Below, piece after piece: positions 19,238-52,616 of a DNA stretch of 64,000 bases; position 1 is the first letter of the stretch, and every line of letters starts with the position of its first letter. The position numbers were made by a program, and so were the translations under genes. The notes beneath the pieces were generated by a model. The model was not told the DNA's origin. It saw only the letters and a program-made list of their open reading frames with translations, and did not search any database. Source of the stretch: Candidatus Sysuiplasma jiujiangense (GTDB lineage: Archaea; Thermoplasmatota; Thermoplasmata; Sysuiplasmatales; Sysuiplasmataceae). The stretch covers positions 1 through 64,000 of the forward strand of contig JAHEAD010000005.1 in the NCBI GenBank assembly GCA_019721075.1. The letters run 5' to 3'.

Positions 19238-19822
19238 TCAGTGATTCCAGTCCTTTCGCAGCACATCTATTATGCCAGGGGTCAGAATAAGTTTTTCATT
19301 CACAACTGGATAGCCGTAGGGCAGCAAAGTTGTATGGACATCGTCCCACCTTATTTCCACTTCTGAACTTATTTCAAGCTCACCAACTGATGCTCCCAGA
19401 AGAATCGCCCTTGCAACAAATGCCGCACTATCAATTGTCAGCTGTATCTTGCCCATGTTTCTCGTTATGTTATTGATTCTATCAAATTTGCTCGTTATGA
19501 GTTTTGCAGTCCTGCCCAGGGGTCTGTCGTAACCGAGGATGCCGCCTACGATCAGGTATTCATAACCTCTTATTTCCTTTTTTTTCAGCTCCTCTGCAGC
19601 CATGTGATCCAGAATTATGCATCCGCTGCCTCCGGTATATTCAAGAGAATCGAGCTCGCTTACTTCGCCTATCTCCTCCAGCAACTTTCTGTCCTTTTTC
19701 CTTCTTATGCTTGTAAATACCAGTCCCGGCCAGATTTCACCGCAATGTCTGTATTCGGCAAGAAGCCAATCTGACAGCCTTTCTTCGCAATTCTCGATGA
19801 CCATCCTCGGTCCTTTTTTCAT
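19238..19822 (-). CDS. SPOUT-class methyltransferase, Sfm1/DUF431 family
   Basis: The protein matches the COG2428 family. It has an N-terminal VIENCEERLSDWLLAEYRH and the SPOUT knot sequence YLIVGGILGYDRPLGRTAKLI, where SAM is bound. The C-terminal stretch is VEIRWDDVHTTLLPYGYPVVNEKLILTPGI. The yeast relative Sfm1 methylates an arginine of ribosomal protein uS3; archaeal members have been predicted to act on RNA or protein. The length of about 194 residues agrees. It is convergent with htpX and divergent from the KaiC-like cassette. Confidence 0.82.
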   Translation of the reverse strand: MKKGPRMVIENCEERLSDWLLAEYRHCGEIWPGLVFTSIRRKKDRKLLEEIGEVSELDSLEYTGGSGCIILDHMAAEELKKKEIRGYEYLIVGGILGYDRPLGRTAKLITSKFDRINNITRNMGKIQLTIDSAAFVARAILLGASVGELEISSEVEIRWDDVHTTLLPYGYPVVNEKLILTPGIIDVLRKDWNH

Positions 19823-19973: not shown

Positions 19974-20756
19974 ATGAGAACGGTTTCGGACGAAAGGGCT
20001 GTTCAGGCTGAGGGAAGCCTCAGCATTGGTCGAGAAAAATGTCTCACCGGCATCGAAGGGCTGGACAGCATTCTGGGAGGAGGAATCCCTAGAAACAATA
20101 CTGTTCTACTCACTGGAAACTGCGGTACCGGAAAAACATCCCTATCGCTCGAATATCTCCTCCACGGTGCTATTTCCGGCGAAAACGGGCTATATCTTTC
20201 GGTCACGGAACCGTTCGAAAAACTGATAGCAAACATGATACCGTATGATTTTTTCAAAAGAGACTTCTTAAAAAACGGGAGACTCACCTTCATCGACATT
20301 TCTACAATATACAGCAAACTCGGTTTCAGCAGAGACAGGATGAGTCTGGAGGACGTCGACCTGCTTGTTGTTGCCATAGGAGATCTGGCCAGGGAAACAA
20401 AGGCGAGAAGGCTGGTCATTGATTCCATTACTTCCGTTGCTTATCAGCTCGATACGCAGGAAAAGCTCAGAAATTTAATGCTCGGACTGAGCAAGATGCT
20501 CTCCGGGCTGGGAACAACATCGCTCATCATATCGGAACTGACTGCAGCCGATGCAAGTTACTCAAAATATGGCGTGGAGGAAGCAATAGCTGACGGCGTA
20601 GTCCTCATGGGGAATCTTGAAAGGAAGGGAGATATGCTCAGGACCCTTCAGGTAATAAAGATGAGGGGAACATCGCATTCGCGTGCGAAATATGTTCTGG
20701 ATCTGACTACGGCCGGGACGCTTCTTGTTCCGCTGCTCAAGGGTGGCCAGTCATGA
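19974..20756 (+). CDS. KaiC/RadA-like ATPase with intact P-loop
   Basis: This 260-residue single RecA-fold protein belongs to the KaiC/RAD55 group (COG0467). Walker A is GNCGTGKT at residues 48-55. A strand with the catalytic-type glutamate follows (LYLSVTEPFEKL), and Walker B is RRLVIDSITSVAY. The C-terminal part (VEEAIADGVVLMG, then LQVIKMRGTSHSRAKYVLDLT) is the KaiC-like closing region. It is first of three genes joined by four-base ATGA overlaps. Such proteins act as signalling or assembly ATPases; the output here is unknown. It is probably the only competent ATPase of the three. Confidence 0.85.
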   Translation: MRTVSDERAVQAEGSLSIGREKCLTGIEGLDSILGGGIPRNNTVLLTGNCGTGKTSLSLEYLLHGAISGENGLYLSVTEPFEKLIANMIPYDFFKRDFLKNGRLTFIDISTIYSKLGFSRDRMSLEDVDLLVVAIGDLARETKARRLVIDSITSVAYQLDTQEKLRNLMLGLSKMLSGLGTTSLIISELTAADASYSKYGVEEAIADGVVLMGNLERKGDMLRTLQVIKMRGTSHSRAKYVLDLTTAGTLLVPLLKGGQS

Positions 20757-21319
20757 ACGATATTGCCAGCCAGGTTGCAGGCGAGGTTAACAAGCTGGAG
20801 CCTAGTACCTCCACATCGCTTGAGATTGGGACAGATGTCTATTTTGATGCCATCAAGGGCATGCTAAGTCTTTCCGACAAGGGCTCGCAGATAATATACG
20901 TGGCATCGACTGTCCCGGCGGACGCAATAATGAATGCAATGGAACTCATCGGGGTTAGCACGAAACAGATCAAGTTTATTGATTGTATTTCAAACATGAT
21001 GACGGGACAGCATAAGAGGGAGGACAACATAATATTCATCGAGAGCCCGACGATGCTGGAAAACATCATGCTGAAAGTGGAATACCTGAGAAGGAAATCG
21101 TCAGGCAAAAATGTTCTCGTCATTCTCGATTCGATAAACACGCTTCATATACACAACGACTGGAAAATTATGGGTGAGTTTCTCCACATCCTGGTCAACA
21201 GCCTGCGTTCAAGAGGTGCAATGATTCTTATGATAAGCATAAAGGAACAGCAGACACAGGAAGTCAGCACTCTCCTGGGCCTTGTGAGCGATAAACTTGT
21301 CAGATTCGGAGGAGAATGA
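20753..21319 (+). CDS. RecA/KaiC-like protein lacking Walker A
   Basis: The 188-residue protein keeps the later strands of the RecA fold. IIYVASTVPADAIMNAMELIG resembles the segment after the P-loop, NVLVILDSINTLHIHNDW is a Walker B-like strand, and a C-terminal IKEQQTQEVSTLLGLVSDKLVRFGG follows. The region where Walker A should lie (around TSLEIGTDVYFDAIKGM) has no GxxxxGK(T/S). It overlaps both neighbours by ATGA. It may be a structural or regulatory partner for the first protein. It could also belong to a RecA-like archaeal DUF family that I cannot name. Confidence 0.7.
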   Translation: MNDIASQVAGEVNKLEPSTSTSLEIGTDVYFDAIKGMLSLSDKGSQIIYVASTVPADAIMNAMELIGVSTKQIKFIDCISNMMTGQHKREDNIIFIESPTMLENIMLKVEYLRRKSSGKNVLVILDSINTLHIHNDWKIMGEFLHILVNSLRSRGAMILMISIKEQQTQEVSTLLGLVSDKLVRFGGE

Positions 21320-22041
21320 TGTCGTTCACGTCAGGCATAAAGAACCTTGATGTGGCACTGGATGGAGGTTTTGCGGAGGGTTCACTCTGTGCTGTAGTAG
21401 GTCATCCGGGATCCGGGCTTGGCGTCCTCGCCATGCAATTCGCCTCTTCCGGGAACGAGAAGAGCTACTATTTTTCCACCATGGACAGCAATGATGAGAT
21501 TCTGCACACGATAAAGCGGTTCGGCTGGAACAAAGACATAAACATAGTGGACATCGGAGACAAATACTATGATTCTGTGCTTCTGAAGAAACTGGAAGTG
21601 ACAAGATACAGGCAGGAGGGAATAAAGGTTATTGACGTTTTCGACTCTGAACCTGACGGTTCCAGACCGTTCAACTTTCTTACATTCCTGACGCATGAGA
21701 TTTTCAAAGTCAAGCCGCCATTCAGGATAACAATAGACTCCCTTGATTTCTTCCTTGACAATTATGGCGTGGATGAGGTTCTCAGCGCCCTCAGGACATT
21801 AAAGGCCTATAACAAGCGCAGCCAGGGCGTAATTCTTGCAACAATGACAAAGGATATTTTCGACAGCAAGACGCAGAACGCGATAGATGCGCTGTGCGAT
21901 ACACTGATTGAACTGGAGAGAGAACGCGCAGGTAAGAAGTTCGAGAACAATTTCATATTGAGCAAGGTTAAGAGTTTTCCTGAGAAGGCAAAGATCCTGC
22001 AATATGCGATTACATCGGAAGGTTTCACTTTATTCGAATAA
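21316..22041 (+). CDS. KaiC/RAD55-like protein with degenerate P-loop
   Basis: The protein has the KaiC/RAD55 opening (SFTSGIKNLDVALDGGFAEGSLCAVVG). Its Walker A reads GHPGSGLG at residues 29-36, so the lysine and the serine/threonine are replaced by leucine and glycine. The rest of the fold is kept: YYFSTMDSNDEILHTIKRFGW, the Walker B-like FRITIDSLDFFLD, and a basic C-terminal region ending with FENNFILSKVKSF. ATP binding in the classical way is unlikely. It is the third gene of the overlapping cassette, and its end faces the RDD gene with a T-rich terminator. Confidence 0.75.
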   Translation: MMSFTSGIKNLDVALDGGFAEGSLCAVVGHPGSGLGVLAMQFASSGNEKSYYFSTMDSNDEILHTIKRFGWNKDINIVDIGDKYYDSVLLKKLEVTRYRQEGIKVIDVFDSEPDGSRPFNFLTFLTHEIFKVKPPFRITIDSLDFFLDNYGVDEVLSALRTLKAYNKRSQGVILATMTKDIFDSKTQNAIDALCDTLIELERERAGKKFENNFILSKVKSFPEKAKILQYAITSEGFTLFE

Positions 22042-22049
22042 TTGCTGCC

Positions 22050-22565
22050 TCAGGGATGAAAGGTGCCCGTTTTTTTTATTTTTACCTTAATCAGCGAGCT
22101 GGCGGGCTGAGCGGATACAACAGTCGTCCCGAAAACGCGGTCGCTGAATCTCTGCCTGGGGTCGCCAAATGTGAAAAAGCCGAGTATGAGGTCGAGTGGC
22201 AGAAGTATGTACCAGAATAGTTTGGATATGTTCCTGAACGCCGCTTCACGGAGCATTATCTGTCCCCTTTCTGAAGAAACGCGGAGTGACATTATTTTCT
22301 TTCCAACAGTATAGCCGTAATAGTATTCTGTCAGAGTCCCGTAGATAAGCCAGCATATTCCAGATGCAACACCCAAAAACAAGTCAAAATATAGTCTGCT
22401 GAATCCGAATGTCATGCCCACTGCCCATATTGGCACGAATATAGTCACCATGTCAATTACGCCGGCAGCAATTCTCTTCAGCCAGTGTGTTCTGAGAACG
22501 CTGTTCCTGAGTATAATCTCCGCAGCTATGGGCATCCCTATTCCCGATGTAGTAATGCTCATCAT
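22050..22565 (-). CDS. RDD-family membrane protein
   Basis: RDD proteins are small three-span membrane proteins. The first helix region contains LKRIAAGVIDMVTIFVPIWAVG with the R/D pair. The motif GYTVGKKIMSLRVSSERG follows a second span, and LILGFFTFGDPRQRFSDRVFGTTVV closes the domain. Some members take part in ion homeostasis, but most are uncharacterised. An internal ATG (22535) would remove ten weakly conserved residues. It is convergent with the KaiC-like cassette. Confidence 0.82.
   Translation of the reverse strand: MMSITTSGIGMPIAAEIILRNSVLRTHWLKRIAAGVIDMVTIFVPIWAVGMTFGFSRLYFDLFLGVASGICWLIYGTLTEYYYGYTVGKKIMSLRVSSERGQIMLREAAFRNISKLFWYILLPLDLILGFFTFGDPRQRFSDRVFGTTVVSAQPASSLIKVKIKKTGTFHP
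22070..22083 (+). terminator. T-rich terminator after the KaiC-like cassette
   Basis: An oligo-T run (TTTTTTTTATTTTT) begins 29 bases after the stop of the third KaiC-like gene. It lies inside the 3' end of the convergent RDD gene. T-runs of this kind stop archaeal RNA polymerase. Confidence 0.5.
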
Positions 22566-22764: not shown

Positions 22765-23241
22765 ATGGTAGAACTTGCGTCGATGGCCGAAGACGATTTT
22801 CTGGCTTACCTGAAGAACAGCATTGAGCTTTATGCCGGTGAGAAGACCAGATCAGGCGACTGGAGTGAAATGGAATCACGGAGCCTTTCCGAGAAGACTT
22901 TCAACAGCCTTCTCCCGGACGGCATGGCGACAAAGGATCATTTCCTCTTCTCCATTGTGGATGAGAACAGCGGATTGAAGGTAGGTGTCATATGGGTGGG
23001 AATCGGGAATGCCAGTCCGGCTAAGGGAGCATGGGTGTGGGATCTGCTCATATTTGAAGGATTCAGGAGGCGAAGGTATGCACTCGATGCTCTTCGAAAG
23101 CTGGAACAGTTCCTCCAGACCAGGGGAATCACCCGCATTTCACTGCATGTATTCGCGCACAACACAGCGGCGCAGCATCTTTATGAGAAGTCGGGATTCA
23201 CTGTTCTGGATATGACGCTGTCAAAGAGCATCACCTGTTAG
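22765..23241 (+). CDS. GNAT-family N-acetyltransferase
   Basis: A 158-residue acetyltransferase. The conserved acetyl-CoA region appears as WVWDLLIFEGFRRRRYALDALRKLEQFL, where the R/GxxG/A-like turn binds the pyrophosphate. It is followed by ITRISLHVFAHNTAAQHLYEKSGF, the classic motif B of the fold. The target (amine, peptide N-terminus or small molecule) cannot be told. A TATA-like element near 22736-22744 lies about 24 bases before the ATG, so the transcript is probably leaderless. Confidence 0.85.
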   Translation: MVELASMAEDDFLAYLKNSIELYAGEKTRSGDWSEMESRSLSEKTFNSLLPDGMATKDHFLFSIVDENSGLKVGVIWVGIGNASPAKGAWVWDLLIFEGFRRRRYALDALRKLEQFLQTRGITRISLHVFAHNTAAQHLYEKSGFTVLDMTLSKSITC

Positions 23242-42390: not shown

Positions 42391-43425
42391 TTGCAGTTCG
42401 AAACGAGTCACAGGATCATTAATTGCGATGCGGCTGAAGGAATAGCCCAACTACCAGACAGTTCAATTGCCCTCACTGTTACCTCGCCTCCTTATCCAAT
42501 GATAGAGATGTGGGATGCGCTCTTTTCTGAGTCCGACTCAGGCATATCAGGTTCAATGGCGTCCGGAAATGCCGAAACGGCGTTCGAATCAATGCATCAT
42601 CAACTCGATAAAATCTGGACCCTGATATGCGCAAAGACAATCGATGGCGGGATTTTATGCATTAATGTCGGCGATGCAACAAGGAGTACAGGGGGACGTT
42701 TTCGCTTATTTTCCAATCATTCACGGGTTATCAGAGGCTGTCTGGCGGCAGGATTTGACCAGTTGCCCGAAATAATATGGAAGAAACAGTCGAACAAACC
42801 TAACAAGTTCATGGGCTCAGGAATGCTCCCTACGGCAGCTTATGTCACTCAGGAACACGAATTCATACTTATATTCAGAAAGGGGCGCAAAAGAAAATTC
42901 GAACTCCCGGATGAAAAGATTCGCAGGAGACTGAGTGCATATTTCTGGGAAGAACGAAACTGCTGGTTTTCTGACATCTGGGATGACATTAAAGGCGAAA
43001 AGCAGGACAATGGGAAATCAACCCGGAAAAGGACGGCTGCGTTCCCCGTGCAGCTGCCCTACAGGCTGATATCAATGTTTTCCGTCATCGGTGACACCGT
43101 CATGGATCCATTCTGTGGCACTGGGAAGACATCAGTCGCGGCAATAGCTGCATGCAGAAACAGCATAGGCATCGACATCAATGAAGAGTATGCAGCGCTC
43201 TCAAGGTTGGATATTTCTAACTGTCTGGATGAATGCAATAACATCATTGGACGTCGCCTTGCCGGTCACACACAGTTTGTTAGCAATTCTGGTGTTGAGA
43301 ATCACCGCTACATTAATGAAAATTACAAATTCAGGGTCAAAACCGCACAGGAATCAGAAATTCTTTTCCCTGTTCCTGTGTCAATACTGTCAGCGAACGG
43401 ACAATTCACTGTAGTCTATTCCTGA
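42391..43425 (+). CDS. DNA methyltransferase, TSPPY type (probably N4-cytosine), orphan
   Basis: A beta-class amino-methyltransferase in which the catalytic motif comes first. Motif IV is VTSPPYPMIEMWD near residue 33, and the SAM-binding motif I is near the C-terminus in MDPFCGTGKTSVAAIAACRNSIGIDINEEY. The SPPY form is typical of N4-cytosine enzymes, although N6-adenine methylation is not excluded. The middle region probably holds target recognition. No restriction enzyme gene is adjacent, so it is an orphan. The start TTG 42391 has GGGAGG (about 42377-42382) upstream. Confidence 0.88.
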   Translation: MQFETSHRIINCDAAEGIAQLPDSSIALTVTSPPYPMIEMWDALFSESDSGISGSMASGNAETAFESMHHQLDKIWTLICAKTIDGGILCINVGDATRSTGGRFRLFSNHSRVIRGCLAAGFDQLPEIIWKKQSNKPNKFMGSGMLPTAAYVTQEHEFILIFRKGRKRKFELPDEKIRRRLSAYFWEERNCWFSDIWDDIKGEKQDNGKSTRKRTAAFPVQLPYRLISMFSVIGDTVMDPFCGTGKTSVAAIAACRNSIGIDINEEYAALSRLDISNCLDECNNIIGRRLAGHTQFVSNSGVENHRYINENYKFRVKTAQESEILFPVPVSILSANGQFTVVYS

Positions 43426-51752: not shown

Positions 51753-52616
51753 GTGCAAAAAGTCATGGAGCTTCATTTGCTCAATAAGCTACATCACGGT
51801 TCTATTTTCGATATACTTCCATCCATTCCTGATGAAAGTGTCGATTGTATTTTCGCAGATCCTGATTACAACGTTGGCGTCAAGTATCAGGGAAAACGGT
51901 ATACGACGGACTTCAACAGTTATTTGGGCGAGTGTATAGAATGGGCGCGTGAAAGCCGGAGAATTTTGAAGAGAGATGGAAATTTCTTTATAGTAAACTA
52001 CGGCAAAAACAGTGCATATCTCCGTGTCAATTATCTGGATAACGCCTTTTATAACGTTTATGAATACGTTTGGGTGTACAGGACAAACATCGGTCACGGA
52101 GAGCATCACTTTACAACCGCGCATCGAATAATTCTTCACTGTACGAAGTCTCCGGATAACAAATTCTATAAAGATGCCGTAGCCCAGCCCTATCAAAATC
52201 CCGGCGACAGGAGGATAAAAGAACTGATTAAGTCTGGTTCCCCAGGGAGAATGCCTTATTCCTGGCTCGAGGGGACTGCGGACGGCACGGCCAACTCAGA
52301 AAGGGACTGGTTCGAATTCAATCTCGTGAAAAATGTCGGTTTTGCAAAAACATTCCATTCATGCCAGATCCCGGAAAAACTTTCAGAAATGCTGTTCAGG
52401 GCGACCTGCAGGAAGGGAGATACAGTGTTGATTCTATTCGGCGGCTCAGGATCTGAAATTGCAGTTTGCCATCGCCTTGGACTGAACTGGATAAGCGCCG
52501 AAAGCATTCCTGAATACTGTGGGATTATCGAAAAGAGGCTTGCTAATGACGGAATGGTCGCGGAGTCAGACAGAATGATCAATTTTATGAAAAGAAAGGC
52601 AGGTCATAAGAAGTAA
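51753..52616 (+). CDS. DNA methyltransferase-like protein with DPDY motif, orphan
   Basis: A beta-type amino-methyltransferase in outline. The catalytic motif reads IFADPDYNVGVKYQ (DPDY instead of DPPY) near residue 35. The SAM motif near the C-terminus reads VLILFGGSGSEIAVCHRLGLNWISAE, where DPFxGSG would be expected. The middle region, with NYGKNSAYLRVNYLD and NPGDRRIKELI, is typical of COG0863 methylases. The altered motifs may still be functional: the Asp and Tyr of DPPY and the GSG are present. No nuclease gene adjoins. Start GTG 51753 has GGAG about ten bases upstream. Confidence 0.82.
   Translation: MQKVMELHLLNKLHHGSIFDILPSIPDESVDCIFADPDYNVGVKYQGKRYTTDFNSYLGECIEWARESRRILKRDGNFFIVNYGKNSAYLRVNYLDNAFYNVYEYVWVYRTNIGHGEHHFTTAHRIILHCTKSPDNKFYKDAVAQPYQNPGDRRIKELIKSGSPGRMPYSWLEGTADGTANSERDWFEFNLVKNVGFAKTFHSCQIPEKLSEMLFRATCRKGDTVLILFGGSGSEIAVCHRLGLNWISAESIPEYCGIIEKRLANDGMVAESDRMINFMKRKAGHKK

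Follow-up and report, generated by a model that had tools for sequence, protein, structure and literature searches.

Why would an archaeon keep, side by side, three KaiC-family genes of which only one has an intact P-loop, and what might such a set do? The question arises from a 64,000-nucleotide stretch of Candidatus Sysuiplasma jiujiangense DNA (the window, positions as numbered within it), in which three consecutive plus-strand genes form a compact triplet. The first, g1 (19974..20756, +, 260 aa), reads as an active KaiC-family ATPase, with a Walker A motif GNCGTGKT, an acidic E79, a Walker B D150 and a trans-acting KMRGTSH finger (K229, R231, H235). The second, g2 (20753..21319, +, 188 aa), reads as an inactive KaiC-like protein, both P-loop and C-terminal finger strand are missing, whilst the motifs ESPTMLE and LDSIN are conserved and a Walker B-like strand (VLVILDS, D126) is kept. 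The third, g3 (21316..22041, +, 241 aa), likewise reads as inactive: its P-loop, GHPGSGLG, has no lysine, and it retains Walker B D141 and the finger lysine K217. Against the Pfam KaiC profile (PF06745, curated cut-off 26.6 bits), g1 and g3 score above the cut-off with 184 and 62 bits and g2 slightly below it with 25.2 bits; homologues of g2 match the same profile at E ≤ 0.01 in 26 of 27 relatives. The initial annotation had described three KaiC-family genes, the first alone with an intact P-loop, the second without Walker A but with a Walker B-like strand, and the third with its lysine gone, and all of this agrees with the sequence and the profile matches.

The ATGA start/stop overlaps claimed at the gene joints are also present at both junctions (20753..20756 and 21316..21319, both +). 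From these the initial annotation had argued that the products are probably made in fixed ratio; spacing varies among relatives, some genes overlapping and others standing 50 or 158 nt apart, so the ATGA overlap is not universal, and whilst translational coupling of g1-g2-g3 is plausible in the window, a fixed product ratio does not follow. A scan for bacterial-type promoters, a class of model that does not describe archaeal promoters, found nothing above shuffled sequence. Next after g3 comes an RDD-family membrane protein gene on the opposite strand (22050..22565, −). Upstream of and divergent from g1 lies an SFM1-like SPOUT methyltransferase gene (19238-19822, −), which triplets in general do not have beside them, and a GNAT acetyltransferase gene (22765-23241, +) lies nearby, a similar-looking protein following g3 in L078 (family f28). 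Elsewhere in the window, two open-reading frames (42391-43425 and 51753-52616, +) carry, on reading by eye, the DNA methyltransferase-like motifs TSPPYP and DPDYNVG.

The division into one active and two inactive members is mirrored in the predicted folds. AlphaFold models of g2 and g3 are both confident (pLDDT 89 and 90), and the best PDB matches of the two are the KaiC-like protein PH0284, KaiC and ArlH/FlaH. The g2 model has a KaiC-like fold (Foldseek E 1e-8), with a short turn at the place of the P-loop, and stops short of the finger strands; the g3 model resembles FlaH/ArlH (4yds, E 3e-14). In KaiC the finger acts on the ATP of the neighbouring subunit, and in the alignment to KaiC g1 keeps this K-x-R-G-T-x-H element. 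Judged from these residues, g1 would be catalytic, g3 would only be able to assist in trans, and g2 would be capable of neither. Inactivated KaiC domains (iKaiC; DUF835, MEDS) are recognised in archaeal signalling (Galperin 2018, PMC5847659, citing Makarova 2017), and g2 and g3 share with them a KaiC fold that has lost Walker A and has no working ATP site. The iKaiC domains of PMC5847659, however, are mostly fused to REC, PAS and other domains and occur in single lineages, whereas g2 and g3 are separate proteins found across the phylum; the match of g2 to DUF835 stays below the cut-off.

The arrangement goes beyond chance. A search for g3 was made in 40 relatives and the surroundings of the matches were fetched: g1-g2-g3 are co-linear on one strand in all 26 relative loci, from about 15 families, and the triplet reaches other classes of the same phylum (Thermoplasmatota). 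A combined set, made up of the relatives' loci, loci from named genomes and the other classes of the phylum, contains g2 in 116 and g3 in 83 distinct loci. Across its alignments the P-loop lysine of g1 is kept in 114 of 114 scorable sequences and its Walker B aspartate in 115/115, the Walker B aspartate of g2 (D126) is kept in 116/116, and the corresponding position of g3 is Asp or Asn in 82/83. A complete GK[ST] occurs in none of 82 g3 sequences, where the lysine position is occupied by Thr, Met, Ser, Ile, Leu, Val, Ala or Cys, and by Lys in two. These two (L124 and L174) read GSGKEL and GAGKEL, with Glu after the Lys in place of Thr/Ser, and may represent an intermediate or a reversion. Aligned to KaiC, the finger lysine of g3 is kept in 82/83 sequences and the finger R/K in 80/83. 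As the P-loop states are fixed across the combined alignments, they are therefore ancient. All three genes are under strong purifying selection, with dN/dS between close pairs of 0.02-0.03 for g1, 0.04-0.08 for g2 and 0.02-0.06 for g3, several comparisons involving the window being saturated at synonymous sites; these values (0.02-0.08) speak against decay of g2 and g3. The initial annotation would have been refuted by relatives with a scattered triplet or with g2 and g3 in decay, and neither is seen; its pattern of one active and two inactive paralogues is borne out by the co-linear loci, the fixed residues and the dN/dS values.

The third gene is not always present. Families f7, f20, f29 and f30 show g1-g2-pilin, no g3 being found next to these genes, and whole-genome searches of the listed f7 and f20 genomes did not find a strong g3. 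As the g1-g2-pilin order persists without g3 in several families, g1-g2 therefore forms the core of the set. In f20 genomes (for example G042, G068 and G152) the g2 match was in many cases reported with one internal TGA, which may be the normal stop inside an extended match; the L080 open-reading frame is intact.

What the set is for is suggested by the genes beside it. Downstream and on the same strand, many relatives encode one to three small proteins with an archaeal type IV pilin N-terminus (xVSPVIATILMVAITVVLAAVLY), confirmed by Pfam Pilin_N. Such PilA-type pilin genes lie directly downstream in 52 of 93 distinct loci with room for them, in at least 14 families (f3, f7, f11, f12, f14, f16, f18, f19, f20, f21, f22, f27, f29 and f30), and no pattern-matched pilin was found upstream or on the other strand in the distinct loci examined. 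By our own estimate, taking a 2 Mb genome to hold about three Pilin_N genes, the chance that a random gene has a pilin within 2.5 kb in that orientation is ~0.2%; the loci and genomes share ancestry, so the counts are not independent and we claim no p-value. Many of the genomes are also fragmentary. Pilin adjacency is missing in 11 families examined, and inherited gene order may account for some of the linkage. Other syntenic neighbours are an RraA-like gene, divergent in 45 loci, an RDD gene, convergent in 40, and M48 in many. In f9, two loci have a gene for a large HerA/TraG-like ATPase immediately before g1 and in its orientation (L054:10173-12668, and an 892-aa homologue in L055); L055 and L056 carry a PAC2-family gene after g3, and in f13 a DUF763-type gene directly follows g3 on the same strand (L046:7116-8201, with the Pfam match in L046; also L081).

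In the window's own family (f1) no pilin adjoins the triplet. In f3, f14, f18 and f20, a homologue of its RDD gene comes after the pilins, which thus lie between the set and RDD; since the homologue directly follows g3 here, the simplest reading is that f1 has lost its pilins from the triplet locus. The initial annotation left the function open, which holds for the window taken alone; in the relatives the set links to type IV pilins.

The association extends to whole genomes. Of 200 genomes of the class, 127 carry g2, and of these 123 have T2SSF (four without) and 121 have Pilin_N (six without), compared to 34 and 24 respectively of the 73 genomes without g2; g2 thus nearly implies a pilus, and not the reverse. 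Fisher p-values for these counts take no account of relatedness, and we do not use them to gauge the strength of the association. Pilus genes without g2 in 24-34 of 200 genomes show that the set is dispensable for some pili; in G036 the triplet is present and T2SSF was undetected. In the window's genome, C15 (about 21.6-22.0 kb) encodes a PilA-like pilin that stands alone, and the machinery is clustered on C3 (about 78.6-84 kb), where a pair of T2SSE ATPases is accompanied by two platform genes, the first ATPase matching PilB3_C at 27.2 bits against a cut-off of 27. At G000:C3 (L167:7654-14042, +), two T2SSE-type ATPases flank two TadC-like platform genes, a 313-aa pilin-like open-reading frame coming ahead of them, and this E-F-F-E order of the pilus machinery recurs across the class. 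The set is thus genomically tied to pilins and pilus motor genes, and the reading we favour, at a probability of roughly 60%, is that g1-g2-g3 is a KaiC-family regulatory complex of the PilA-type (PilB3-like) type IV pilus in Thermoplasmatota, functionally ArlH-like.

Its most serious competitor, which we consider unlikely but deserving of weight, is a general KaiC-type signal-transduction hub not dedicated to pili, for which pilin adjacency would be inherited order without functional meaning. The window's own locus, with no pilin, is compatible with such a hub, as is the frequency of RraA-like and RDD neighbours, nearly as high as that of pilins in the sampled loci, and KaiC proteins are described as archaeal signalling hubs by Galperin 2018 (PMC5847659). 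Pilins, however, are the only neighbours that are both co-directional and downstream in so many families, their order behind g1-g2 holds even in families without g3, and the presence or absence of g2 is strongly correlated with pilin and platform genes, all of which argues for the pilus.

Far less probable is that the triplet is part of an archaellum switch. The likeness of the g3 model to FlaH/ArlH speaks for it, and the triplet shares a KaiC-like fold with ArlH (FlaH), which is proposed to switch the motor of a type IV filament in an ATP-dependent way. ArlH, however, is a single homo-oligomeric protein of the archaellum operon, and of 41 genomes only 3 carry archaellum markers (ArlH, archaellin), which there coexist with the triplet, ArlH lying separate from it; neither ArlH nor archaellin was found in the window's own genome. 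Both g1 (41.2 bits) and g3 (41.1 bits) also fall far below the cut-off of 215 for ArlH (NCBIfam NF052589). The set goes with pili rather than archaella.

Still harder to credit is an archaeal forerunner of Elongator Elp4-Elp5-Elp6 acting on tRNA. The architectural idea is the same, Elp456 being a hetero-hexameric ring built from three distinct RecA-like proteins whose P-loops are defective (PMC11050213), and PAXNEB (Elp4) matches 23 of 27 g3 and Iki1 (Elp5) 11 of 27 g2 sequences. Ordinary KaiC paralogues taken as controls, however, match PAXNEB too (3.6e-5 to 9e-4), all matches from the window are below curated cut-offs (g3 to PAXNEB, 25.0 bits against 28), and among the top 50 fold matches there is no Elongator structure, with KaiC and ArlH ranking first. 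Elp456 is a eukaryotic tRNA-modification complex, the neighbourhood of the triplet is that of a pilus and not of tRNA, and we found no specific relationship between the two. A circadian-type clock kinase with two modifiers can be set aside as the least credible reading, for although g1 is closest to KaiC proteins, it is a single domain of 260 aa where circadian KaiC has two tandem KaiC domains, and its equivalents of the CII sites S431 and T432 are Glu and Ala, so that it resembles the non-kinase CI ATPase domain.

For the pilus-regulatory complex that we favour, the three proteins would come together, probably as a ring or arc of the KaiC/ArlH kind, within which g1 would bind, and perhaps hydrolyse, ATP. 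Canonical ATP binding by g3 should be impossible, and g3 could donate its K/R finger to the neighbouring g1 site, whilst g2, with neither P-loop nor finger, may make the assembly asymmetric, acting as scaffold or output subunit. Through g2 and g3, the nucleotide state of g1 could then control either how pilins are expressed or whether the pilus motor is engaged. All of this is prediction, from co-assembly, stoichiometry and ring form to the target and the direction of control; the nearest working model is ArlH acting on ArlI in the archaellum. Among KaiC-like proteins whose role on a type IV-like filament is defined, ArlH has been studied best. The fullest version, a phylum-wide asymmetric KaiC ring of one catalytic and two dead subunits that serves as the ArlH counterpart of a two-ATPase pilus machine, with g3 completing the g1 ATP site in trans and g2 as the symmetry-breaking output, we offer only as a tentative possibility.

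Parts of this proposal have precedents. KaiC-like ATPases at archaeal type IV pilus loci (arCOG01171, arCOG01174 and arCOG01175) have been predicted as pilus regulators (Makarova, Koonin, Albers 2016, PMC4858521), and the triplet resembles them in including a KaiC-family ATPase encoded with type IV pilus genes; this genomic linkage is found in the relatives and is not adjacent in the window itself. The systems of PMC4858521, in the passages compared here, are, however, KaiC-like genes that occur singly, one of them with a DEATH-like partner, as against a constant trio in which one paralogue is active and two are inactive. The CdiP pilus of Cuniculiplasma (PMC12448462) and the pilus of the window's genome share a layout in which a single locus holds two motor ATPases together with two platform genes, and the pilins lie elsewhere; a KaiC set is not described in that paper, and family f17, which may belong to that order, is without g2. 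A further precedent comes from Haloferax, whose KaiC-like CirA affects motility and cell shape (PMC13286277). The association of KaiC with pili and the inactivated KaiC domains are therefore already published, whereas the fixed active-plus-two-inactive set appears to be new within the literature searched, in which we found no such set with PilA pilins.

To our knowledge, almost nothing has been established about how archaeal type IV pili are regulated. The triplet offers a natural case of lost ATP sites within a RecA-fold set, and one active and two dead KaiC proteins tied to PilA pilins make a specific, testable candidate for a pilus switch in a phylum that is mostly uncultured.
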